Origin: Hysterangium stoloniferum
Lineage: Eukaryota; Basidiomycota; Agaricomycetes; Hysterangiales; Hysterangiaceae
DNA: 64,000 nt
Direction of reading: 5' to 3'
Assembly: GCA_015178975.1 (NCBI GenBank)
Contig: WHVD01000098.1
Coordinates: 266,892-330,891, forward strand
Below are positions 11,305 through 64,000 of this stretch, piece after piece; the stretch's first letter is position 1, and each line of letters begins with the position of its first letter. The position numbers were made by a program, and so were the translations under genes. Under the pieces are notes generated by a model. It did not search any database and was not told the origin of the DNA. It worked only from the letters and a program-made list of their open reading frames with translations.

Positions 11305-12327
11305 ATGGGACCAAAGCCCACGCTGCGCAAGCCTATGCCAACCACCAGGCCCTCCATGGGCAGTCAGTACCGGGCGCCACTCCCCGCTGCCCAAATTTTG
11401 GCACAGTGGGACGAGCAACATTGACAGCGAGAAGAGGCGGAACGAGAAGCCTGAGAGGTGGAGGAGGCCCTGAATAGGGAGTACCAGGTGGCAGTGGCCG
11501 TGGAGGAAGAGGCTGTGAGGCAGAAACAGAAGGATGAGGAGGAGGCTGTGTGGGTGGCCATGGAGAAGGCCAGGGTGGCGGCAGAGAAAGCCCGGGTGGC
11601 CGTGGAGAGAGCCGCGATTGTTGCAGGAAAGGTAAGTCCCATCATTCGACTTGTTGTGTTTTTCTTTGACTTGGTGTTTCAGTGCAAGGCAGCAGAAGTC
11701 GAGTCCGAGTCTGAGGGAGAGGCAGAGAGCCCCAACAAGCTAAATTTCGGGTCTGTGGGAATACCGTGGAGCTAACTGTATCAACAGAAAGCAAGGAAGG
11801 CGGCGCCAGTCTGCCTACCGACTTGGAACGACCCGCGGTGTTCCGGTTGTAATGACCGGAACACTGAGTGTAATTGGAAGTCCGGCCGGGGCCCGGGATG
11901 TTACCAGTGCGCACACCTCAAGGCGAGGTGCTCGCTCATTCATGAGCAGGCCACAGGGTCCGGTAGTACACGGGAAAGTGGCGGGTCGGATGGATACTCT
12001 GGTCTGGAGGAGGTTTTGGGACGGATCGCTGATGGGATTGAAGCCCAAAACGAGTTGCTCCAGAAGGGCAACAAGGTCAGTGTTGTCATGGCCACTGATC
12101 TCCGCGCAATCCACGGGGACCATTTCACATTTCTGAGGGACTATGCAGGGTTTGTATGTGAGAAGCCAGAGGAGGGGAGTTCTGAGGAGGCCAGTTCAGA
12201 TGAGGAGGGGGTGCCCACAGAGGTCGCGGAACTAACCGAGGAGATGAATGCCACAGGAAAGGCTGAGGCGGGAAAACAGGAGGCGGGGAAAAAGAACAGC
12301 CCCATCAATGTAGATGAAGAAGAGTAG
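11305..12327 (+). pseudogene. Accessory zinc-cluster gene of element C (3 exons, two nonsense codons)
   Basis: Exons 11305-11631, 11683-11739 and 11788-12327 give 307 codons in one continuous phase. Exon 1 is an Ala/Glu/Lys/Arg-rich coiled coil, exon 2 a short acidic linker, exon 3 a zinc cluster CSGCNDRNTEC then CYQCAHLKARC (Cys spacing 2-6-9-2-6, matching Zn(II)2Cys6), followed by another helical region and an acidic, Lys-rich C-terminus. Intron 1 (51 bp) has GTAAGT...TTTCAG. The intron 2 donor is CTAAAT where the relic at 9169 has GTGAGT. In-frame TGA codons stand at 11422-11424 and 11452-11454. Runs convergent with pol, whose stop is 192 bp away. In the family, Zn2Cys6 domains bind DNA; the role here is unknown. 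Confidence 0.8.
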
Positions 12328-18403: not shown

Positions 18404-18850
18404 GGATAAAACAGTTCTAACATTGAAACGTGAAAGACAGGATGAATTCCTTTGAGATGATTGGGAAGTTTTAATCTGTATGAATGAGATCCTGGTCAAG
18501 CAATGATTTTGAATGGGCCTAATAATTTTTCCGATAATTTTTTCAATGGTCAAGTTGTTCGAATGAAATCGGATCATATGAAGACTTGAGAATGGATCGG
18601 AAAGTTGAATGACTCTTTTCGATGTATGTCGGAATATTTTTGATAACGTATTTACACTTTCTGGATATTTGATTTGAGATGTTTATGTAAAGCTTTGAGA
18701 TCTGTCATATAATTGTGAGCTAGAGTGGAAGCTGAATCTTTTTCAGGGTAAATTTCTAACAATGGATGATAACCTTTATTAGCAAAAAATAGTGTTTCAC
18801 CAGTTGTTTCAGAAGGTGCATTGTTGTAAGCAAATTCAGCTAAAGGAAGT
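18404..18850 (-). pseudogene. Fragment of family-3 (element E-like) gypsy integrase C-terminus
   Basis: Plus-strand sequence closely parallels 26830-27280 in element E (for example GTTCTAACATTG, then GATGAATTCCTTTGAGATGA). It is the minus-strand integrase/linker part of that family. Cut on the left by element C and on the right by LTR-4 at 18851; neither junction shows a matching target duplication. Confidence 0.85.
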
Positions 18851-26580: not shown

Positions 26581-29500
26581 TTAGTGTCGTGGAAGATTTG
26601 GATATTTTTGATGAAATTCTTCGATAAGGTCAAAAGCATTTTCGAGATCTTGAGATCCTAACCACAAAGTTTCTTTGTCTGTTCCTTCGTAACCTAACCA
26701 AGCAACTAAATATTGTAACGAATCTTTATATCTTTTATTGAATTTTGAATCCAAAATTTTTCAAATTTCATATTCAGGTTCTTCTTCAACATAAATTGGT
26801 GGAGGAGGAGGTTGTTTTTGATTTGGGAAAGTATTGGGATAAAATGGTTCTAACATTGAGACGTGAAAGATGGGATGAATTCCTTTGAGATGATTGGGAA
26901 GTTTTAATGTATATGAATGAGATCCTGGTCGAGCAATGATTTCAAATGGGCCTAATAATTTTTCCAATAATTTTTTCGATGGTCGAGTCGTTCAAATGAA
27001 GTCGGATTGTACGAAGACTTGAGAATGGATCGGAAAGTCGAATGACTCTTTTTGATATATGTTGGAATATTTTTGATAATGTATTTGCACTTTCTGGATA
27101 TTTGATTTGAGATGTTTATGTAGAGCTTTGAGATCTGTCATATAATCACGAGCTAGAGTGGAAGCTAGATCTTTTTCAGGGTGAATTTCTAATAATGGAT
27201 GATAACCTTTATTAGCAAAAAATGGTGTTTCACCAGTCGTTTTGGAAGGTGCATTATTGTAAGCAAATTTGGCTAAAGGAAGTAATTCGGTCCAATTGTC
27301 TTGTTGATAATTGGAATAGATTCATAAATATTGTTCGAGAGTTTGATTGATTCGTTCAGTTTGCCCATCACCTTCAGGATGGTATCCTGAAGTGAAATGT
27401 AATTTCATGTCAAGCGCTGTTCCGAGAGATCGAAAGAAATGCGATACAAATTCAGATCCTTGATCAGAAGTTACATGACTTGGGACTCCATGTTTTGAAA
27501 AGACATGTAATACAAAAAGTCAAGCGAGTTCGGGAGCGTTGATCGTAGTATAAGTTGGAATGAATATTGCTTGTTTCGAAAGTCGATCGACTATTACGAG
27601 TATTGAGTCGTAACCATTCGAGGTCAGTAATTGTTCAATAAAATCCATCGAGATCGAATGCCATGGTCGAAGAGGAATCAGAAGTTACTTAAGTAATCCA
27701 ATGGGTTGATGTCATGGAGTTTTCGATTTTGTACATATTACACATAATTGAATAAAATCTTGAATATCTTGTTGGAGTTGTGGCCAAAAGAAATCTCGAT
27801 ATATTGTTCGATACGTTTTCATTTGACCGAAATGGCCTGCGGTAATATGATCGTGTCGTGATTGAAGAATTCGAAGTTGGAGATTTTGATAATCGGGAAC
27901 GTAAATTCTGTTTCAGAAACATAAAAAATCTTGTTTGTTCTTTTGCCAATCTTCTTCAGTGCCATCGGAAATCTGTCAAATTTTATTGAGAGTAAATTGA
28001 TCTTCTTTTTGAGCTTTGAATATATCTTTCAATAGTTGATCTGTATCCATAATGAGAGTAGCTTTTCTGGCTATTGGAAGATAATATGTTGCATGCAAAG
28101 AAGCTTGAATTTGTTCATTTGTAAATACCAGTCGAAGATTAGTCGGATTCTTTTTTGAGTAATTGGGTTCATTCAGATAAATGTCATTTCTTCTTGAAAG
28201 AACATCTGTTTTCAAATTAAGTTTTCCCAGTCAAAATCAAATAATCAAATTGAAAGTCAATAAATATTCTGCCCATCGAGCTTGTCGTCGAGACAAAATT
28301 CGAGTTGTCACAAAATATTTGAGATTCTTGTGATCCATTAAAACTTCAATTGGTTCTTTTGTTCCTTCAAAATAATGTCACCAAATTTTAAAAGATTTGA
28401 ATATTGCCAATAATTCTTTATCGTAAGTGTCGTAATTAATTTCAGAGGTCGAAAGAGTTCCTGAATGATAAGTGACTGGATGAATTTCATTATCAGGAGT
28501 CTGCATAGAAAATATTGAAGCTATGGCATGATCAGAAGTGTCAGTTTCAAGTATAGGTTTGTAGTCTGGATTCCAATGAATTAAAATTGGAGCTGTAGTA
28601 AATTCTTTTTTCAAATAGTTAAATGCATGTCGACATTTTTCATCGAAATGCCATTGAACCTTTTTTCGAGTAAGTTGAGTCAATGGTAAAACAATTTCAG
28701 AATAACTTGGAATAAATCTTCGATAGAAATTCACGAATCCTAAAAATGATTGAATGTCACAGACTTTTTGTAGTTCAGGCCAATCTTGAATAACTTTGAT
28801 TTTTTCTTCATCCATATATACACCTTGAGGAGAAATAACATATCCTAGAAACTCGACACTGGTTTTATGAAATTCGCATTTTTCGGGTTTTGCAAATAAT
28901 CGATTTTGTTGAAACCGTCGAAGAACTTCTCAAACATGTTGTAAATGTTCTTCAAGATTGTCGGAAAATATTAGTATGTCATCGAGATAGATAATTACCC
29001 AAATATCAAGTAAATCTGAAAATATTTTGTTCATTAATTGTTGAAAGGTTGCCAGAGCATTGCATAGTCCAAAAGGCATAACCAAATATTTGAAAGATCC
29101 ATATCAAGTCTGAAAAGCTGTTTTCCATTCGTCACCTGGAGCAATCCTAACTAAATTATAGGTGCCTCAGAGATTGATTTTCATAAAATATTTCACTGTT
29201 TGAAGTCAATCCAAAAGATCAGGAATTAAAGGAAGTGGATATCAGTTTTTTCATGTGATTTCATTAAGTCCTCGATAATTGACACAAAGTTGTAGGCTTC
29301 TGTCTTTCTTCTTAACGAATAAAATCAGTGCGCCGGCAGGAGATTGCGATGATCGAATAAATTTCTTTGAAAGGTTTTCTTGGAGATATTCTCGTAGCAC
29401 TTGAAGTTCTGTCTCGGATAACAAATTGATCGGACCATAGGTGGAGTAGTTCCTTCTTCTAATGGGATAGTGTGATCATAACTTTGATGCTGAGGTAAAG

Positions 29501-30313
29501 CTTCAGCTTCCTTTTTGTTGAAAATGTCCAAGAAGTCAGAATATTCGGTCAGAACGTTCAGTATGTCAAATGAAGTTGAAGTCGTGGTTTTTGCACCAGA
29601 GGCCTTACAAGTCTTGAAAGATTCATCACAAATAAAGACCACAAAAGTTTGAGAGTCTTTTGCTTTCACAGCTCATAAAAAAGTCTTCTGATTGACTATG
29701 TTGATATTCAGATTGACAGTCTCGGATTTCGATTCTTCACAGATTTTCTCAGATGTCAATGAATGACTCACCGAGGTCAAAGCATGCTTCTCTTCCAATA
29801 ATGTTTTGATTGATGGTTGAATCAGATTCAGATTTGTTGAAGGTGTCGAAGTAGGTTCGAACGATATACAGCCAGATCGCCAGTCAATTGCAGGATTGTA
29901 TTGCTTCAGCCAGTTGAGTCCTAATACCACTTGACAAGACGAGTTGAGATTGGTTAAAAAGAATTGTAATTCTTGAGTCTGCCCAGATGGAAAGTAAACT
30001 GGTAATGTAGTCATATACATAATTTGTCCTGATGTTGGAGTTGATCTGTCGATTAATTTTAATGATAACGAATTTTTCAATTGGTCGAAAGATAGATTAT
30101 TTTGTTGTGCAAATGTTTTGTCCATAAAAAGATGACTAGATCCTGAATCAATTAATGCTTTCATTTTTGGAATTTTCTTTAATTTAAGTTCAATAATTGA
30201 AGAATCAGAAATTGTTACCGCTCGTAATATTACACAGGAATCTTTTTCGGTGTGATTGAGTTTTCTTTGATACTCCTCTTCACACGCCTGAAGAGTATCC
30301 CTTTTCAATTTTC
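26581..30313 (-). pseudogene. Element E pol (PR-RT-RNaseH-INT-chromodomain), heavily mutated
   Basis: Recognisable blocks in order: protease ALIDSGSSHLFMD (about 30165-30125), RT with YLDDILIFS near 29000-28970, post-RT FLGFVNFYRRFIPSYS (about 28740-28690), RNase H (ETDTSDHAIASI), integrase with FPDD-like region and HPEGDGQTERINQ near 27350-27390, the integrase C-terminal LLGPFEIIARPGSHSYTL (about 26950), and a chromodomain ending at the TAA 26581-26583. Dozens of in-frame stops and several frame changes. Frame relation to gag is -1, as in the other families. Confidence 0.88.
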
Positions 30314-31500
30314 CAATTTAACATTTGATGTTTGATTTGACTGGTCAGATTGAGTTGTCGAATCTTGGATTTCAATGATTTGTCCTTTTGCAATTTGACG
30401 AGTTTTTCTTTTTGGGCAATCTCTCACCAAATGGCCTTTTTCTCCACATAATATACATAACCCTTCTTTAAATCTTCTGTCTTGTTCGGCAGGAAGTAAT
30501 CGTCCATCAGCTCCTAAAATTGTCGAAGATGGTGTTGCTTGAGTTGAAGGCCTAAATGTTCTTGAAGTCGAAGTTATCAGTTTTGAAGTCGAAGGTATTC
30601 ATGATGTTGAAGGATAGGTCGTAGGCATCGCCGACTGTCTTCTTTCAAATCTTCGTGGAGTCGAACTTGATTCTGTTTCACATTGTCATTCATTCTCTCG
30701 CATCCAATAGTAAGAATTGAGTTGAAGGGCTGCCATTCACAGTTCAGCAAAACTTCTGGGCTGAACTTGAAGCTTCACTATTTCATCCTTAATTCGATTT
30801 GGAAGTCCTTTATAAATTCATCATCGTAAAGCAAATTCGTCATATCGAGTTTGAGCAGCAAGACTTGTAAATTGAATTGAATACTTTGCCATATGATGAA
30901 GCTTTCATTCGAAGATTATCGAGTTTTTCTTCAGCTTCTCCTTCTGCATCAATTTCTCCAAACTGAGCATATAATTCATCTAGAAAGTCAAGATAATCCA
31001 CAAGGAAAGATGGCGGAGGAATTGGGGGATTTAATAAGAAAGGTTGCCACCACTCTTGAGCTGTTTTCTGAAAATATGAAGTTACCATTGTAATTTTCAA
31101 TTGATCAGATTCAAACGATTTTGGTCGAGATCGAAAGACCATTTTGCATTGAGCGATAAAATTCTTCAACATCAAAGGTTCTTCTCCAGTAAACTCTTCA
31201 CTGTGATTTCGGGCTCCTTTGAAGACATCTGGTCCTTCAATACTTTTCCAAGCGCATCTCTGAAATGTGATAGCATTGTTTCATCTTCAGACATAACAGG
31301 TTCGGGAGGTGGAGACTTGGGCAAAGGTGTTAGAGGGGATTTGGATTTTTAAATTGGCAAGATCGGCTCTTCTCGAACTTCTTCGGGTTCTTGAATTGAA
31401 GACATCATAGCTCTTCGAGTTTTGGTCAAAGGAGAAACTGGAATTTGCGATGGCCGAATAACTCTTGGTGATGGAATGGGAGCCACGGATTGAAGTGCTG
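30305..31500 (-). pseudogene. Element E gag (capsid and CCHC), mutated
   Basis: The capsid core is visible at 31175-30840 (MVTSYFQKTAQEWWQPF, then DFLDELYAQFGEID). The zinc knuckle CILCGEKGHLVRDC is intact at about 30468-30427. Ends TTG GAA AAT TGA at 30305-30307, immediately followed by the pol frame at -1. The N-terminus around 31500 is too decayed to place the start; the region up to the LTR at 31571 holds the leader. Confidence 0.75.
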
Positions 31501-50493: not shown

Positions 50494-51482
50494 CTAATTC
50501 TCTTCCTCTACAACTTCTCCCTTCTCTCCAGCCTCTGAACCCTCTCCCGCACCGACAGCCACCGATACCGCTTCACCGACCTTCTCCGACACCCCAATCT
50601 CATGCCCATGGCAACTCGAGACTTCCAAATACTGCTCAAGCTGACCACCGAGGGACTCGATAATGCTGGTCTGTTTCTCCAGTCTGATGCCCAAGAGTCG
50701 CAATTGCTCGGTTTGAGCCCTTGTTGTTGCAATGTCTCGAATTGGAACCGAGTCGTCTCCGAGAAATAGGTCCGCATAAGGCGGTTTTGCTCTTCTAGAG
50801 CGTCGGCCTGTCACTCCTGGAATGATCCATCGGCCCCCGGGAAAACGCACCCAAGCTTCTGATCGGTGCACTCTTGACAAGTGCAGCCCCGACCACTAGC
50901 CCAAGGGTGGCATGTTTGACCCCGTTTTGTGCACCAGTTGCACTTAGGGTCATTTTCGGGCCCCACCTTTGGGGCCTGCTTTTGTTTCTATAGGAAAATT
51001 ATTAGCAGAAGTTTTTATTCAGGAAGCCGAACCCACCTTGGGGCTTGACGGCCCTGGTGCATTCTCCTCATCCTCCTCTTCCTCTTCATCATCGGACTCC
51101 GAAGGCGTCGCAGCCTTACGCTAAAATAAAGTAACATATAAATCAGTAAAATCTATAAGAACATCGGCCGGAGCCGACTCACCTTCCCCTCCCGCTTCTT
51201 CTTCGCTGCCTCCTCTCGCGCCCGTTCGACCTCGCGCTGTTTTTTCTTCGCAAGCACTGCATCCCAGTGCTTGCGTGCAGCCTCTTCCGCTGCCTGCTTT
51301 TTCTCCTCAGCCTCTATGGCTGCCAGCTCCTCTCTCTCTTTCCGCTCCTCCTCTTCATGTGCCTTCCACTTCTCCTCGAGTATGCATCAACGTTCCTGCG
51401 CGTTAGCCGGTCCACTCGGGACCGACAAGGGAGCGACCGTTAACCGAACCGGGAAGGGTTTTGACCCCGAACCTATAGTCAT
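50494..51482 (-). pseudogene. Accessory zinc-cluster gene of element A
   Basis: Minus-strand exons 51482-51183, 51120-51037 and 50987-50494 with GT...AG introns. Exon 1 encodes a Glu/Lys/Ala coiled coil, exon 2 an acidic linker, exon 3 the zinc cluster CNWCTKRGQTC, ten residues, CQECTDQKLGC (spacing 2-6-10-2-6), then a Gln/Leu-rich helix. Inactivated by TGA at 51387-51389 in exon 1, TGA near 50820 (Trp codon in element F) and a one-base loss near 50722. Convergent with pol, whose stop lies 92 bp away. Confidence 0.82.
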
Positions 51483-56448: not shown

Positions 56449-57171
56449 TGTTACGACTGTGTCGTAACCCTTCGCAAACCGACGGCCCCCGACGGAATAC
56501 CCTCGTTATACGTCTCCGACAATACAACACCTCGGAAGCCGTCGGACCCCCGACGCTGACGTATGCTCTCCGGTCAATCAAACCCGACTACGCCTTTCTG
56601 TCTGGTTATGTTTTGATATGTCCCTTTCATCATGTTGATCCGTCTCATCTTATGTTCCACATATGTCTAACTATATTTGTAGTCCTCGAACTATTTCCTT
56701 TTATCGTAATTTCCATTCTCGGTGATCATCGGCCTCCGAACTAATCATAAACTTCCTGTTCCTAGTCAAGCTTATTGTTAATGCCGTTTTCCGCCCTCCT
56801 CCCCATTAGTACTTTCTAGACGCCTGTTACTTGTATATGAACTCGCTGTAATTGTAGTTACTAGGCAATCAGAATATCGACTCAGAATACCCTCATACGT
56901 CTATAGCAGTCTCATACTAGGAGAATCTCTCTTCCGCCTTCACGTGCGCTCGCCCACTCTCGGCCCCGACCCCTTGGCCCGACACCTGACTTTTCCTTCG
57001 GTTCCGATCGGTGTCTTGCCGAAAAGTTCTTCTTAGGATTTAGTCTTCGCCTGTCCGAAATTTAAGGACAACCTACGGATATTTGCGAGGGCGCAGCATA
57101 TAAGCTGAAGCCAAGTCCTTCCGATCGGTCCCCGTCGGCCACCGACATTAGTCAGTTTCTAGTTCTTAACA
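56449..57171 (+). repeat. Element B 5' LTR (LTR-1, 723 bp)
   Basis: TGTTACGACTGTGTCGTAACC...TAGTTCTTAACA. Contains the block shared with LTR-2 (GCGAGGGCGCAGC at 57085, then ATAAGCTGAAGCCAAGTCC). Confidence 0.95.
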
Positions 57172-57194
57172 GTATATTCTGATTTTACACTCGC
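57172..57194 (+). promoter_or_regulatory. Candidate primer-binding region of element B
   Basis: GTATATTCTGATTTTACACT directly after the 5' LTR. It lacks the TGG expected for a tRNA 3'-end primer. Elements A, C and E begin their internal regions with GTATATT or GTATTTT too, so the start is conserved. Confidence 0.4.
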
Positions 57195-57209
57195 ATTTTC
57201 CGTCTAATC

Positions 57210-58508
57210 ATGCCTCCGAGGAAAAATGCCAAGCCTAGCGGCGAAGCAGAATCTTCCACTCTCAAGTCTCCTTTCCTGTATACAGCCCGAGCTACTCAGA
57301 AAACTCCGTTACCAGAAACCTCCGAAGAATCTCGCTTTGTGGAGATTACCGGCGATGCTGAAGAAGTAACCGAAGCAACCGACCCCGAAGCAACTGAGGA
57401 GATTAACAATCAACCAGTTTTGGAACACGAACCCGAGGATGGCGACCAACCTCAGGCTAGTGGCTCCAAGAAGTCTGCAAAGAAGAAACCGGCTCTCGAC
57501 CCTGAAGAAACATGGGAATTGTTTTCAGGTACACTAGGATCCCTTAATGAATTCCTTAAAAGCAATATCAAGGAAAAGGAACCTGGGCAAACCCAAGTCA
57601 ACAAACCCGAGCCATTTACTGGCTCAAACCCGAAGAAATTGCCGACATTTCTCATGCAATGTCGATTCAACTTTCGGGACCGCCCGGCTGCATTCGCAAC
57701 GGATGACCGAAAGGTAAACTTCGCACTCTCATACCTTAAGGATTCCGCAGCAGCCTGGTTCGAACCCGCATTCTCTGGCCTCACCTCTGAAGACCCCGAT
57801 TGGCTCCACGATTGGGATGCCTTTGTCGAGGAACTTGAAACCAACTTCGGCCCCTACGACCAAACTGGCGATGCAGAAACCGCGCTTTCTAATCTCAAAA
57901 TGAAAGACACTCAGCGCATCACCGATTATATCGTCCAGTTCAACAACCTCGCCGCGCGTTGCGACTGGGGCGATTCGGCCCTCCGATACCAGTTTTACTC
58001 CGGCCTTCCGTCTCGCCTCAAAGACGAAGTTTCCAAAGGAGAGACCGGCAAGCCGAAAACCCTCCCTCTCATGCGCCTGAAAGCCCAAAACGCAGACGCT
58101 CGATACTGGGAACGACGTTCGGAAATCAGTCGCGAAAACCCGTCGGACAAAAAATCATCGGACAACAAAAATGCCAACAAGTCTGGTAACCAAAACACCA
58201 ATATAACTGGCAACTCGACTTCCAATAAGAAGTCCGAAAACAAAGGGTCTAACGACAAAAAAGGCAAGGGCAAACAGTCGAATAAGTCTCAAGACAAAGA
58301 CAAACCCGACCTAACTGGCAAACTCGGCTCCGATGGCAAGCTCCTACCACAGGAAAAGCAACGCCGAATGGACAACAACCTTTGTTTGTTGTGTGCAGAT
58401 CCCGGACACCGAGTCGCTGCATGCCCAAAAGCCACAAAAGCCCGATCGGCCAATACGGCCACGACCTCACAACCGGCCAAGCCGGCTGCCGAGTCGAAAA
58501 AAGATTAA
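57210..58508 (+). CDS. Element B Gag (capsid, low-complexity linker, CCHC zinc knuckle), intact
   Basis: 432 codons from ATG 57210 to TAA 58506-58508. N-terminal about 120 residues acidic and unstructured; capsid-like retrotrans_gag core about 125-290 (PFTGSNPKKLPTFLMQCRFN, WDAFVEELETNFGPYD, RITDYIVQFN); Asn/Lys/Ser-rich linker 310-370; zinc knuckle Cys392-Cys395-His400-Cys405 (CLLCADPGHRVAAC), which in this family binds genomic RNA. The protein would assemble virus-like particles in the cytoplasm. No stop or frameshift compared with A, C and F, so this is the reference copy. Ends in the A6 slippery run from which pol is reached by -1 shifting. Confidence 0.95.
   Translation: MPPRKNAKPSGEAESSTLKSPFLYTARATQKTPLPETSEESRFVEITGDAEEVTEATDPEATEEINNQPVLEHEPEDGDQPQASGSKKSAKKKPALDPEETWELFSGTLGSLNEFLKSNIKEKEPGQTQVNKPEPFTGSNPKKLPTFLMQCRFNFRDRPAAFATDDRKVNFALSYLKDSAAAWFEPAFSGLTSEDPDWLHDWDAFVEELETNFGPYDQTGDAETALSNLKMKDTQRITDYIVQFNNLAARCDWGDSALRYQFYSGLPSRLKDEVSKGETGKPKTLPLMRLKAQNADARYWERRSEISRENPSDKKSSDNKNANKSGNQNTNITGNSTSNKKSENKGSNDKKGKGKQSNKSQDKDKPDLTGKLGSDGKLLPQEKQRRMDNNLCLLCADPGHRVAACPKATKARSANTATTSQPAKPAAESKKD
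58497..58508 (+). promoter_or_regulatory. Gag-pol -1 ribosomal frameshift site
   Basis: Gag frame TCG AAA AAA GAT TAA; the -1 frame reads AAA AGA TTA AGC and continues open through pol. The shift window is an A6 run ending three bases before the gag stop. Element C has TCG AAA AAA GAG TAA at the same place. Confidence 0.65.
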
Positions 58509-61500
58509 GCAACTCTCTGGATTCCGTGCGGTTGGAGAGTTGCGTTGAATCTCCTCGCACACCGGAAAATTGTCATCTTAACGCATCCGCATTGTATGAT
58601 CCTAATTCTTTGTTCATAAATCTTACTTCGGAACCTCTCGGGAGTTTCACTTTTCGAGCTCTCATAGATTCAGGTTCAACCCATTGTTTTATAGATACAA
58701 GTTTTTCCAGAAAAAATCAGTTGAAAACCTATGCAATAGATCCGATTCCGCTCCGACTTTTTGATGGTACCTCAAACTCCGTAATCTCGCAAACCTGCGA
58801 ACTCCGACTTCGGTTCCCGTGTGGAACCTTTCAGACAGTTACGTTTTTTGTAACACAGTTGGACTCAAGCTGCTCCGTGGTTCTAGGACATAACTGGCTC
58901 ACCCGCTATAATCCGTTGATTGATTGGGTATTGGGCAGTATCCATTTCCGAACCCCGTCGGCACCCAATACGACTGGTCCGTTTCCGCCTGTTTCGGCAA
59001 ATATGGCCTCTACAGCACCTCCGGCCCCCGTGGCAAATCCGAGCTCTCCGCCGCCCGTCTCTCTAATAAACGCCGCAGCTTTTATGAGAGCCATCAAGCT
59101 GGACGGCTCCCGAGCATTTACAGTCAATCTTAAAGTTGACGAAGTCACCGGTCACTTCGCATCCCCGGTGACCGAACCGATCGCAGATTTAGAAGGTGTT
59201 CCTAAAAAATACCATGAATTTGCAGATGTCTTCAGTAAACAAAAAGCCGATCGACTCGCCCCTCACAGGCCTTACGATTTGAAAATTGATATTGAAGATG
59301 GTTCACATCCGCCCCTAGGTCCGGTTTATCCTCTCTCGCAGTCCGAACTATCGGCTATCCGAGATTTCTTGGATGAACACTTGGCTATAGGTTTTATCCG
59401 ACCCTCAAAGTCTCCCTATGGAGCCCCTGTCCTATTCGTTCGGAAAAAAGACGGTTCCCTTCGACTTTGCGTTGACTTTCGAGGACTAAACGCGATTACT
59501 CGAAAAGACAAGTACCCATTACCACTAATCTCCGATTTACTCGACGCCCCTCGAAAGGCCCGAATTTATACAAAGATAGATCTCAAACACGCCTATCATT
59601 TGGTTCGGATCGCCGAAGGTGACGAATGGAAAACAGCTTTTCGCACTCGCTATGGTTCCTTTGAATGGTTAGTGATGCCTTTCGGCCTCACCAACGCTCC
59701 GTCGGTCTTTCAACGTTTTATCAACGACGTCTTTTCCGACCTACTTGACGTCTTTGTCATTGTGTACCTAGACGACATCCTCATCTTCTCCGAAGACCCT
59801 ACACTTCATGATGAACACGTCCGTGAAGTCCTCCGAAGACTCCGAAAACATGGTCTTTTTGCGAATGGTAAAAAATGTTCTTTTGATGTCGACACGGTTG
59901 AATACTTAGGCTTCATGATGGAACCCGACGGTCTCCGCATGGACGACTCTAAAATTCAAGTCATTCAAGATTGGCCGGAACCCCGAAAGGTTAAAGATAT
60001 TCAGTCCTTTTTAGGCTTCGCCAATTTTTATCGCCGTTTCATTCACAATTACTCAAAAATTACCGTTCCGCTCACTCGTCTTACTCGCAAAGACACCCCG
60101 TGGAATTTCTCCGACGAATGCCGATCGGCATTCCAGGAATTGAAAAGTGCATTTACATCCGCCCCTATTTTGTCGCACTGGAAACCCGACGTTCAACTCA
60201 TCGTGGAAACTGATGCTTCGGACTATGCGCTTGCCGCGATATTGTCCATTCTGGACACCGATGGTGAAGTACACCCAGTAGCTTTTCTGTCTCGCACATT
60301 TTCGGCGCCCGAACTCAACTACGACGTTCACGATAAGGAATTACTCGCAATCTTTGAAGCTTTCAAGACATGGTGACATTATTTGGAGGGCTCGGCCCAC
60401 CCGGTAGATGTTATTACAGACCACAAAAATTTAGTTTACTTTTCAACCACAAAACTTCTCACCCGTCGACAAGCTCGATGGTCCGAATACCTCTCCGCTT
60501 TCAACATGGTAATCCGCTTCTGTCCCGGCCGCCTTGGTGGAAAACCCGACGCTATGACTAGACAATGGGACGTCTATCCTAAAGAGGGGAGTAGCGACTA
60601 CGCCACAGTTAACCCGCATAATTTCAAACCTATGTTTTCATCGGAACAACTGTCCGCATCTATCCGAGCCACTTACCTCATTCATCCAGTCTTGCGAAGT
60701 GTTATCCTTATGGATACCGAAAAGTTACATCAAGACATACTATCGGCAATTCCATTAGACCCAGTCACCAAAGCACACCTCGATAACCCGTCCGACCCCG
60801 ATCAACCCCGATGGTCATTAGACTCACAAGGTTTCATTCGACTTGACAATCGCATTTATGTACCGGATTCCGACACCCTTCGGCTGCGAATCCTACAACA
60901 TAAGCATGACCACCCAATCTCAGGACATTTCGGCCTCAATAAGACCCTCTCACTCATTAGAAGAGAATATACATGGCCCGGCATCCGAGATTTTGTTAAG
61001 CACTATTGTAAATCCTGTACTACGTGTTTACGCTCTAAATCACAGCGACACAAACCATATGGCCTACTCAAACAATTACCGATACCGGAAAAACCCTGGA
61101 ACTCGATTTCTATGGATTTTATCGAGCACCTGCCAGCATCCGAAGGTCACACAGCAATCCTAGTTGTTGTGGATCGGCTCTCAAAGCAAAGTATTTTCAT
61201 TCCAACATATGACACGATAACATCTGTACAGTTAGCTGAATTATTCGTTACCCATGTATTTTCCAAGCATGGCGTTCCGTCGCATGTCACATCCGATCGC
61301 GGCTCCGAGTTTGTCTCTCACTTCTTTAGGTCACTCGGAAAAGCACTAGACATAAAGTTACACTTCACTTCGGGCTATCACCCGGAAGGCGATGGACAAA
61401 CCGAACGCATGAATCAAACCTTGGAGCAATACATCCGTGTCTATTGCAACTATCAACAAGACAATTGGAAATCACTACTACCGCTGGCCGAATTCGCATA

Positions 61501-62194
61501 CAACAACGCACCAAATGCCACTACTGGCATTTCGCCTTTCTTCGCAAATAAAGGCTACAACCCCAACATCGCAATCCACCCGGAATGCGATCTCGCATCC
61601 GCCCGTGCTCAAGACTTTGTTACAAACCTTGACGAGCTACATCAAGAACTTCGTAAAACTATCGCAATGGCTCAAGAACGATACCAACGGTCTGCGGATA
61701 AAAACCGACTTCCACCTCCTGATTTCAAGATCGGAGACCGAGTATTCGTTAAAGCCGAGTTTTTCCGAACCACTAGACCTTCTAAGAAGCTCTCTGAAAA
61801 ATATTTAGGTCCTTTTGAAGTTATAGCACAAGCCGGCACGCTTTCATGGACGCTTCGGCTCCCCGACAACATGCGTGCAGTACACCCGGTATTTCATGTA
61901 TCCATGTTAGAACCTTGTGTTGCTAACAGTATACCCGATCGCATACAACCACCACCCCCACCCGTGATCATCGACGGGGAACCCGAATTTGAAATATCGG
62001 AAATCCTAGACTCCAAGATCGACAATCGCAGGCGATCGTGCAAGTTACTTTATTTGGTCAAATGGACTGGCTATGAAGGTACAGATGAAGAAACTTCCTG
62101 GATTCTAGCCACCGAACTTGGCAATGCATCGGAAATTGTTTTAGCTTTCCATCAAACGTATCCAAATAAGCCCGGTCCTTTAGACTCTCTTTAG
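58497..62194 (+). pseudogene. Element B Pol (PR-RT-RNaseH-INT-chromodomain), one premature TGA
   Basis: Single frame from the shift site to TAG 62192-62194, broken only by TGA 60374-60376 in the RNase H segment FKTW-stop-HYLEGS; element A has CGA (Arg) there. Protease ALIDSGSTHCFID with active Asp at 58667; RT FVRKKDGSLRLCVDFRGLN and YLDD at 59765-59776; RNase H ETDASDYALAAIL and DHKNLVYFS; integrase HHCC (CKSCTTC about 61009-61030) and DDE in SMDFIEHL, TSDRGSEF and HPEGDGQTERMN; chromodomain about 61975-62170 (LVKWTGYEGTDEETSW). Without read-through of the TGA, this copy makes no integrase. Otherwise every catalytic motif is intact. Confidence 0.93.
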
Positions 62195-62318
62195 TCCTCG
62201 CACGGTAACCGACGGCCTCCGGTTCTTCAAACATCAAGTCTCACTAGTCGATGCTTTCAATTTTCAATTTTCAATTCACGTTTCAAAAAAAAAGGGGATA
62301 AAATCAATTATTATTTTG

Positions 62319-63326
62319 CTAACTACCCAAAGTACCCTCCACTACTTCCCCTTCCTCCTCGGCCTCCGAAGCTCTTGCTTCACCGACGGCAACCGATATT
62401 CCCTTCCCTCCAGTTTCCTCCAAGGCCCTAACCGGCTCAACTTCGTCCGAACTAGGCAGCTCGAGATACTGCTCGAGCTGCCCCCCGACCCACTGTAACA
62501 TGGCTGTCTGTTCTCCAATAGCCACTCCCAGCAGTCGCATTTGCTCTTGTAGGAGCCCCTGCTGTCGCAGAGACTCGTTTCGCCACCGAGTGGTCTCCGA
62601 GAAGTACAACCGCATAAGGCGGTTCTGTTCCTCCATCGCGTCTGTCTGGCGCTCTCCGTAGATCACACCCACGTCGGCCCCCGGGTAGGTACAACCAAGT
62701 TTTTGACTCGCACACTCTTGACATGTGCGGCCCCGACCGTTCGCCCGAGGATGGCAAGCCCGGTTCCGAGCAGTGCAGCGGTTACACCTAGGATCGTTTT
62801 CAGGCCCCGCCTTTGGGACTCCTTTTTGTCTCTATCACTAAAAGTCAGTAACAGCAAAAAAAAATATATATATGCATAAATACCTTCGGGCTCGAAGGCC
62901 CCGCAGCCTCATCCTCATCTTCCTCGTCCTCTTCATCGGAGACCGACGGTGATACTGCCTTTCGCTGAGAAGAAAACATTAGTAGAGATTCGCAGTGCGG
63001 TATTTCTCCTAACTTACCTTCCCTTCTCGTTTCTTTCTCGCCTCCTCCTCTCGGGCCCGACCGGCCTCCTGCTGTTTTTTCCTCGCAAGATCAGCCTCCC
63101 GACGCTTGCGCGTAGCTTCCACCTCCGCCCGTCTCTTCTCCTCCGCCTCGGCCACCTCAATCGCTTTCAGCTCCTCCATCTCCTTTCGTTCCTCCTCCTC
63201 GCGTGCCTTTTTCCTTGCCTCGAGTTGGCGACGACGCTCTAGTGCATTCAGCGTCCCACTCGGACCCGACGCGGGAGTTACCGTCAGCCTCACAGGGATG
63301 GTCTTCGCCCCAGTGTTCATTGACAT
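62319..63326 (-). CDS. Antisense accessory zinc-cluster protein of element B (3 exons, 300 aa), intact
   Basis: Minus-strand exons 63326-63018, 62964-62884 and 62831-62319 join in phase 0 to 300 codons plus TAG. Introns of 53 and 52 bp have GTAAGT...CTCAG and GTATTT...GATAG ends. Start MSMNTGAKTIP has an ACAATG context. Residues about 27-103: highly charged coiled coil. 104-130: acidic linker (SVSDEEDEEDEDEAAGPS). Zinc cluster Cys146, 149, 156, 167, 170, 177 (spacing 2-6-10-2-6), exactly the fungal Zn(II)2Cys6 pattern, with Arg/Lys-rich surroundings. 195-255: helix with Leu/Gln heptads; acidic C-terminus. Known Zn2Cys6 proteins are nuclear DNA-binding regulators; a role in element transcription, targeting or anti-silencing is inference. 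Ends 125 bp from the pol stop, convergently. Confidence 0.8.
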
Positions 63327-63377
63327 TGTGTTTTGGAGGAAAGATTGAAGAGTAAAGCGCCTTGTAACCTCCCATTT

Positions 63378-63408
63378 CTTATATGCGAAAATTTTACCGG
63401 TCACATGA
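63378..63408 (-). promoter_or_regulatory. Putative promoter of the element B accessory gene
   Basis: On the minus strand TCATGTGA (63408-63401) then TATAAG (63383-63378), 52 bp before the ATG at 63326. Same order as in elements A, C, F and the 7-kb relic. Confidence 0.55.
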
Positions 63409-63499
63409 CGTTCTGACACACAACCCGTAACCGACGTTGTTTTACGTACACGATCTAGATTTTCGGCCTCCTTGGGATTTCGGCCAAATGAGGGGATAC

Positions 63500-64000
63500 T
63501 GTTACGACTGTGTCGTAACCCTTCCGCAAAACCGACGGCCCCCCGACGGAATACCCTCGTTATACGTCTCCGACAATACAACACCTCGGAAGCCGTCGGA
63601 CCCCCGACGCTGACGTATGCTCTCCGGTCAATCAAACCCGACTACGCCTTTCTGTCTGGTTATGTTTTGATATGTCCCTTTCATCATGTTGATCCGTCTC
63701 ATCTTATGTTCCACATATGTCTAACTATATTTGTAGTCCTCGAACTATTTCCTTTTATCGTAATTTCCATTCTCGGTTATCATCGGCCTCCGAACTAATC
63801 ATAAACTTCCTGTTCCTAGTCAAGCTTATTGTTAATGCCGTTTTTCCGCCCTCCTCCCCATTAGTACTTTCTAGACGCCTGTTACTTGTATATGAAGCTC
63901 GCTGTAATTGTAGTTACTAGGCAATCAGAATATCGACTCAGAATACCCTCATACTCTGTCAGCAGTCTCGATACTAGGAGAATCTCTCTTCCGCCTTCGC
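63500..64000 (+). repeat. Element B 3' LTR (LTR-1), truncated by window end
   Basis: First 501 bp of the LTR; aligns to 56449 onward with a handful of single-base indels in homopolymers and a few substitutions. Confidence 0.95.

Follow-up and report, generated by a model that had tools for sequence, protein, structure and literature searches.

A spliced antisense gene of Hysterangium stoloniferum chromoviruses encodes a zinc-cluster-like protein and is accompanied by an excess of inverted CGG dyads along the element

In a 64,000-nucleotide stretch of DNA from the ectomycorrhizal, truffle-like basidiomycete Hysterangium stoloniferum (contig WHVD01000098.1, positions 266,892 to 330,891; hereafter the window), a Ty3/gypsy chromovirus termed element B carries a spliced gene for a zinc-cluster-like protein antisense to its own coding region. 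This gene is old and under purifying selection. We consider the chances about even that its product is a homodimeric, zinc-cluster-like protein that serves as a working component of the lineage and recognises the CGG dyads of its own element, most likely activating it or opening its chromatin.

The gene lies on the minus strand of element B, opposite in orientation to gag-pol, and its three exons splice into a product of 300 amino acids followed by a stop (Table 1). It is bounded by the pol stop (ORF end at 62194) and the start of the 3′ LTR (63500). An intact 300-codon, three-exon minus-strand gene between pol and the 3′ LTR had been proposed in the initial annotation, and we find such a gene at that place. 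For one copy, the deposited H. stoloniferum gene model P0002 joins exons 1, 2 and 3 with junctions identical to ours. The intactness holds for the antisense gene but not for the whole of element B, because pol carries an in-frame TGA at 60374–60376. By Pfam, the element combines gag, protease, RVT_1, RNase H, integrase and a C-terminal Chromo domain, as a chromovirus does. Its LTRs start at 56449 and 63500, with 485 of 495 aligned LTR positions identical. Elsewhere in the window, the minus strand at 28378–30317 holds ORFs of a further gypsy-like element, with reverse transcriptase and protease pieces recognised by eye.

Table 1 Positions of the antisense gene, element B and related features in the window
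Feature	Position	Strand	Remarks
Antisense gene exon 1 (charged coiled-coil-like region)	63326-63018	-	found in 44/48 rows
Antisense gene exon 2 (acidic, PSSPK)	62964-62884	-	
Antisense gene exon 3 (six-cysteine cluster, linker, long helix, acidic tail, stop)	62831-62319	-	
Intron 1	62965..63017	-	53 nt, GT-AG; GT donor in 44/44 exon-1 rows
Intron 2	62832..62883	-	52 nt, GT-AG
TATA-like box (TATAAG) of antisense gene	63378..63383	-	57 nt before ATG
Element B, Ty3/gypsy chromovirus, type I	56449..64000	+	3′ LTR cut by window end
5′ LTR of B	56449..57171	+	3′ end inferred from terminal CA before gag
gag	57210..58508	+	Retrotrans_gag, Ty3_capsid (Pfam); ORF
pol frame, in-frame TGA at 60374-60376	58286..62194	+	ORFs; RVT_1, RNase H, integrase
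Chromo domain, pol end, within exchanged cassette	61988..62155	+	PF00385, residues 537-592 of window:60380-62191
Gene-to-LTR block including polypurine tract	63440..63499	.	92% identity, type I vs II
U3 start of 3′ LTR, diverged along with gene	63500..63680	+	CGG-N3/N4-CCG dyads
Putative exchanged cassette: chromodomain end of pol, antisense gene, U3 start	61880..63680	.	dS jump, identity profile
Element A, type II antisense gene, decayed	50518..51482	-	tblastn of exons 1 and 3
Element C, type C antisense gene, decayed	11305..12327	+	element on minus strand; exon 3 open 11788-12324

A search of the H. stoloniferum genome (111 Mb, 554 contigs) with exon 3 returned at least 151 matches (150 of 648 candidates scored); at least eight, the window copy among them, are identical over 170 residues. 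For types I and II we examined 48 rows, namely 46 fetched loci and window copies A and B. L011 corresponds to a copy already in the window, which leaves 47 distinct places; all rows were detected via the gene, so that elements lacking it fall outside the sample. Pol lies on the opposite strand in 48/48 rows. Where exon 1 is detectable, the intron 1 donor reads GTRWGT (44/44) and a TATA-like box stands upstream of the antisense ATG (44/44): a script located TATAWA at 56–59 nt before the ATG in 27 of the 44, and the other 17 have TATAAG at about 55–61 nt. The six cysteines are present in 44 of the 46 rows with a readable exon 3 start, the exceptions being L035 and L052. Intron sequences have turned over between types, with donor, branch-like and acceptor signals retained apart from exceptions such as L044, whose intron 2 acceptor is without its G. 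Many gene copies contain stops or frame changes. One locus on contig C538 (L061) holds another, older version of the antisense gene, the source of deposited protein P0001, in an AT-rich, apparently nested setting where exon 2 and the intron signals are still legible.

Differences among copies indicate purifying selection on the protein. By Nei–Gojobori counting on chosen pairs, dN/dS was 0.08–0.45 for exon 1 and 0.10–0.35 for exon 3 in all 12 pairs of types I and II (24/24 exon comparisons) and 0.18–0.29 for exon 3 in 10/10 type C pairs; single values are rough, given the shared branches of the pairs, the decay of some copies and a dS near saturation between types I and II. Three of 12 pol comparisons were left out as void, being gapped out-of-frame pieces (winB–L024, winB–L039 and L039–L040, with ratios of 1.29, 1.23 and 0.56). 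The gene is thus not evolving neutrally, at a dN/dS of about 1, which was one of two outcomes that the initial annotation had named as telling against its proposal. A chance ORF is ruled out by this selection and by the conservation of splice signals and cysteines.

A homologue of the same layout occurs in a second element type. Exon 3 of element C (11788–12324) encodes a protein 30% identical to that of B, with cysteines spaced 2-6-9-2-6; the type C gene has the exon order of B and a TATA box, and its window copy is decayed. A genome query with the type C gene gave a first-look list of 1282 candidates; 150 of these were scored, and every one matched. In the young type C copy L074, the LTRs are identical over 821 bp. 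Compared with B, its gag is 54% and its pol 72–84% identical, and apart from word-length matches the two LTRs have in common a single stretch of 76 aligned positions. The data do not support a recent capture from the host, because the gene is present in types I/II and in type C with the same layout, at 30% identity. Relatives were found only in H. stoloniferum, two proteins (P0001 and P0002) by profile search and one protein by a further search; another search returned none, and viral contigs gave none; these searches require shared five-residue words and some scored only the best word-sharing candidates, which limits their sensitivity. P0001 matches the genome at 100% over residues 3–116, and P0002 matches it in four pieces at one place (78–98%). 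Separately, the type C copy (L074 and element C) is strongly enriched in the 9-mer CGGACTCCG and the 7-mers CCGTGGA, CCACGGA and GGACTCC; CGGACTC is not present in element B.

Zn(II)2Cys6 domains (PF00172) follow the pattern C-X2-C-X6-C-X5..12-C-X2-C-X6..8-C. Exon 3 of B encodes C-X2-C-X6-C-X10-C-X2-C-X6-C, as first read in the initial annotation, and both this spacing (44/46 rows) and the 2-6-9-2-6 spacing of type C fall within the family pattern. The suggested search against the Zn_clus profile turned out otherwise: the curated Pfam cut-off (21 bits) was not reached, B was without a match at E values up to 1, two of 11 members matched (best E 0.83), and type C scored 12 bits (E 0.24). We therefore do not file the protein as a PF00172 member and describe it only as working like one. 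Profile alignment of exon 3 with eight host Zn_clus domains in hhalign gave a probability of 76 and an E value of 2.3e-5, with the cysteines aligned. A PDB sequence search with the protein gave no matches at E values up to 10, and Foldseek returned no matching chain. AlphaFold predicted a single helix over exon-3 residues 53–123 (pLDDT 89–97 over residues 61–120) and gave the six-cysteine cluster no confident fold (pLDDT 51–58). Of the coiled coils previously placed on both sides of the cluster, the one in exon 3 agrees with this helix, and the one in exon 1 corresponds to a charged E/R/K/A stretch seen by sequence inspection.

Gal4-type Zn(II)2Cys6 factors have a cluster–linker–coiled-coil order and recognise inverted CGG half-sites with a fixed spacer; their dimers (Gal4, Ppr1, Put3) bind CGG triplets at a spacing set by linker and coiled coil. 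The protein described here resembles them in cysteine spacing, in its cluster–linker–coiled-coil order and in having inverted CGG triplets with a fixed spacer as candidate sites. It differs in lying below the Pfam cut-off, in the shorter spacers of those sites and in being encoded antisense in a retrotransposon. Among the host Zn_clus matches themselves we observed tight runs, with four matches within about 570 bp in a 203-aa frame (L002:1165-1776, contig C115) and two groups of three (C56:27459-28077 and C56:39173-39800), as if several zinc clusters stood in a row per protein.

Comparison of types I and II revealed a sharp break near the end of pol. When B is set against a type II copy from contig C549, dS values are 0.07 for gag, 0.04 for the first pol frame and 0.03–0.06 for the pol codons that follow as far as 61879; they climb to 0.53 at 61880–62029 and 1.31 at 62030–62191. 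In the antisense gene, dS between B and type II copy L040 is about 1.7–1.9. An identity profile of B against three type II copies, in 60-nt windows, gave 0.43–0.82 over the gene (62240–63439), 0.92 at 63440–63499, 0.58–0.76 over the initial ~180 nt of the LTR and 0.86–0.95 further on. The jump in dS and the identity profile together imply that the chromodomain end, the gene and the U3 start share one older history. Fast evolution of the gene was rejected as the source of the contrast with pol, as synonymous sites also rise, and do so at one point. The comparison points to an older cassette, made up of these three parts, that was joined onto a shared gag-pol, probably through template switching between RNAs packaged together. 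The linkage is breakable: in the decayed copy L026, as judged by eye, the gene is of type I and the LTR start resembles type II.

The elements that carry the gene contain an excess of inverted CGG triplets. We compared about 61,440 gapped triplet dyads, each ranked if seen at least five times. CGG-N3-CCG headed the list for B by over-representation (22 observed, 2.9 expected), and it ranked second and third in two type II copies, third in A and fifth in the window's element C. In 25 kb surrounding eight host zinc-cluster matches the same dyad came 8924th, and it had fewer than five occurrences at 18700–44700 of the window. L074 contains CGG-N3-CCG and CGG-N5-CCG 23 times each (4.3 expected) and CGG-N0-ACT 19 times (2.8 expected). 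Another type C copy, at 93% nucleotide identity, contains N3 and N5 nine times each against 1.4, and the decayed window C contains 11 N3, five N5 and six N7 dyads against 1.6. CCG-N1-CGG is also somewhat raised in B (11 against 2.9), and in the codon-permutation control described next other G/C-only dyads are mildly raised (25 against 16.2, 30 against 17.2 and 24 against 18.4, or 1.3 to 1.7 fold).

As the main control, we permuted the synonymous codons of gag-pol, keeping protein and codon usage, and scored 640 palindromic dyads over 1000 shuffles. Type I gag-pol had 11 N3 dyads against 1.91 expected (0/1000 shuffles) and eight N4 against 1.85 (1/1000); type II had 11 N3 against 1.72 (0/1000) and seven N4 against 2.01 (1/1000). 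In type C, N5 reached 17 against 2.55 (0/1000) and N3 12 against 2.06 (0/1000), with N4 at 4 against 2.3 (177/1000) and N7 at 4 against 1.4 (42/1000). After correction by a factor of 640, N3 was significant in types I, II and C (3.4e-3, 1.3e-3 and 1.2e-3) and N5 in type C (1.3e-6); N4 was not significant. Because their gag-pol is common to both, types I and II amount to a single case, with type C the second. No dyad excess was seen at any gap in nine host ORFs (8.9 kb, 254 CGG/CCG triplets; lowest p 0.2), and none in six Copia ORFs, a weak control with only 153 CGG/CCG triplets.

CGG-Nx-CCG sites occupy all three codon phases and are spread along the whole element, not confined to the LTR, which shares in the excess. 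In U3, the opening 150 nt of type I contain N3 dyads at 33 and 83 and an N4 dyad at 93; those of type II (L040) contain N2 dyads at 24 and 80. In the second half of pol, where B and L074 are 75.7% identical in nucleotides, three sites are common at equal spacing, four occur only in B and 14 only in L074 (gaps 2–5); most were therefore gained or lost separately. Dyads of B were preserved no better than control triplets: both type II copies compared keep 19/22 (controls 147/158 and 139/158) and A keeps 9/22 (control 104/158), about as single-triplet loss predicts. Old copies have undergone CpG decay, which accounts for 25 of 45 differences in L021, 64 of 284 in L028 and 64 of 270 in L030. Each CGG half-site contains a CpG, and this together with CpG-to-TpG decay suggests methylation as an opposing force.

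We propose that the antisense gene is a functional, long-retained part of this chromovirus lineage. It would be transcribed from its own TATA promoter beside the LTR, and its product, with six-cysteine cluster, linker, long coiled coil and acidic tail, would dimerise. The dimer is predicted to recognise inverted CGG triplets with a spacer of 3 (with 4) in types I and II, and of 5 and 3 in type C. Elements may have accumulated such sites along their full length, synonymous gag-pol positions included, and protein seated on many sites of its own copies would most likely activate the element or keep its chromatin open against CpG methylation, as VANC does in plants. The gene, the chromodomain end and the U3 start would move together from one element to another, presumably through template switching. 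A spliced gene can survive passage through the sense RNA genome because antisense introns are not introns in that RNA. CGG spacing that depends on type, together with a zinc-cluster-like protein of each type's own, is what a self-binding protein would leave. The initial annotation had suggested that the element brings its own regulator, perhaps binding its LTR to activate it, counter silencing or steer integration. The spliced antisense gene, its selection and a dyad excess that includes the LTR fit that suggestion; the candidate sites extend beyond the LTR, and coating or de-silencing is likelier than promoter control alone because the sites cover the whole element.

Other readings of the same data have to be weighed. 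The protein might bind the same dispersed sites and repress its own family, as a form of copy-number or superinfection control. Phage immunity cassettes, in which repressor and operators are swapped together, give this reading a model, and the joint divergence of gene and U3 start and the type-dependent dyad spacing would suit it; a selfish element, however, has no obvious gain from repressor sites across gag-pol, and we regard repression as unlikely. We give less credence to the idea that the dyads are RNA stem-loops, for example Gag-bound packaging signals, with the antisense protein doing another job. CGG-loop-CCG can fold in the sense RNA, and the mild rise of other G/C-only dyads (1.3 to 1.7 fold) is in keeping with it, but CGG..CCG is up 5 to 7 fold at N3 or N5, the excess concerns one triplet pair that is the known zinc-cluster half-site, and N4 in type C is non-significant (177/1000) although four-base loops suit RNA.

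It is equally improbable that the protein and the integrase chromodomain together choose insertion places or chromatin, so that the cassette is a targeting module: the break falls before the Chromo domain and both would travel together, yet the sites lie inside the element itself, which is no obvious insertion target. Most improbable by far is that the gene is a passenger, captured from the host and of no use to the element. The stops and frame changes of many copies are what such a gene would show, and against it stand low dN/dS in 34/34 exon comparisons, the retention of splice and TATA signals despite intron turnover, and a homologue at 30% identity with the same layout; the results contradict a passenger unless CpG decay distorted the selection estimates. 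Activation or opening of chromatin by a self-binding dimer remains our preferred reading.

Other retroelements are already known to carry an antisense gene between pol and the 3′ LTR. Boty-like gypsy elements of Botrytis cinerea carry brtn in this position (PMC7264820, PMC8365987, PMC4227169), likewise as an extra antisense gene in a fungal chromodomain gypsy element; the accessible descriptions of brtn mention no zinc cluster, spliced structure or self-site array, and on that description set it apart. TRP28 antisense ORFs of plant Retand elements are widespread in their lineage, lie between pol and the 3′ LTR and are predicted to bind DNA; as far as the source describes them, they belong to a non-chromovirus plant lineage, have another protein domain and come with no proposed target sites (PMC11963269). 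VANC proteins of Arabidopsis VANDAL elements, as summarised in their reports, bind DNA sequence-specifically and cause demethylation; their motif is short, dense in their own element and mainly in non-coding DNA, and related VANCs have different targets (PMC5735166, PMC10398659). Dense motifs in the own element occur here too (CGG-N3-CCG, and in type C also CGG-N5-CCG), in an LTR retrotransposon and also in coding sequence, whereas VANDAL is a DNA transposon. VANC is the nearest precedent for the proposed self-binding protein.

The initial annotation knew of no zinc-cluster gene of this layout in fungal chromoviruses. Among the open-licence literature matches listed, in the parts available, we likewise found no zinc-cluster antisense gene in a retrotransposon, no joint exchange of such a gene with U3 and no matching site arrays in gag-pol, so that the novelty, limited to the literature searched, lies in the zinc-cluster version with its cassette and dyads; antisense genes as such are, with brtn, not new to fungal gypsy elements.

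If the proposed reading is right, the unexplained antisense genes of gypsy elements would gain a concrete job, binding their own element, and an LTR retrotransposon would be seen to evolve cis sites in coding sequence for a trans factor that it carries itself. The antisense position has a possible reason as well, since only there are introns safe from being spliced out of the RNA genome. Sequence-specific self-recognition would then extend from plant DNA transposons to fungal retrotransposons. In its fullest form, to which we give somewhat less than an even chance, each type encodes its own dimeric protein and has sites of matching spacing (N3/N4 or N5/N3) throughout, even in coding sequence, with the protein and the U3 start forming an exchangeable specificity cassette. 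If true, such self-recognition would be a retrotransposon counterpart of phage immunity groups or of a VANC-type anti-silencing code.
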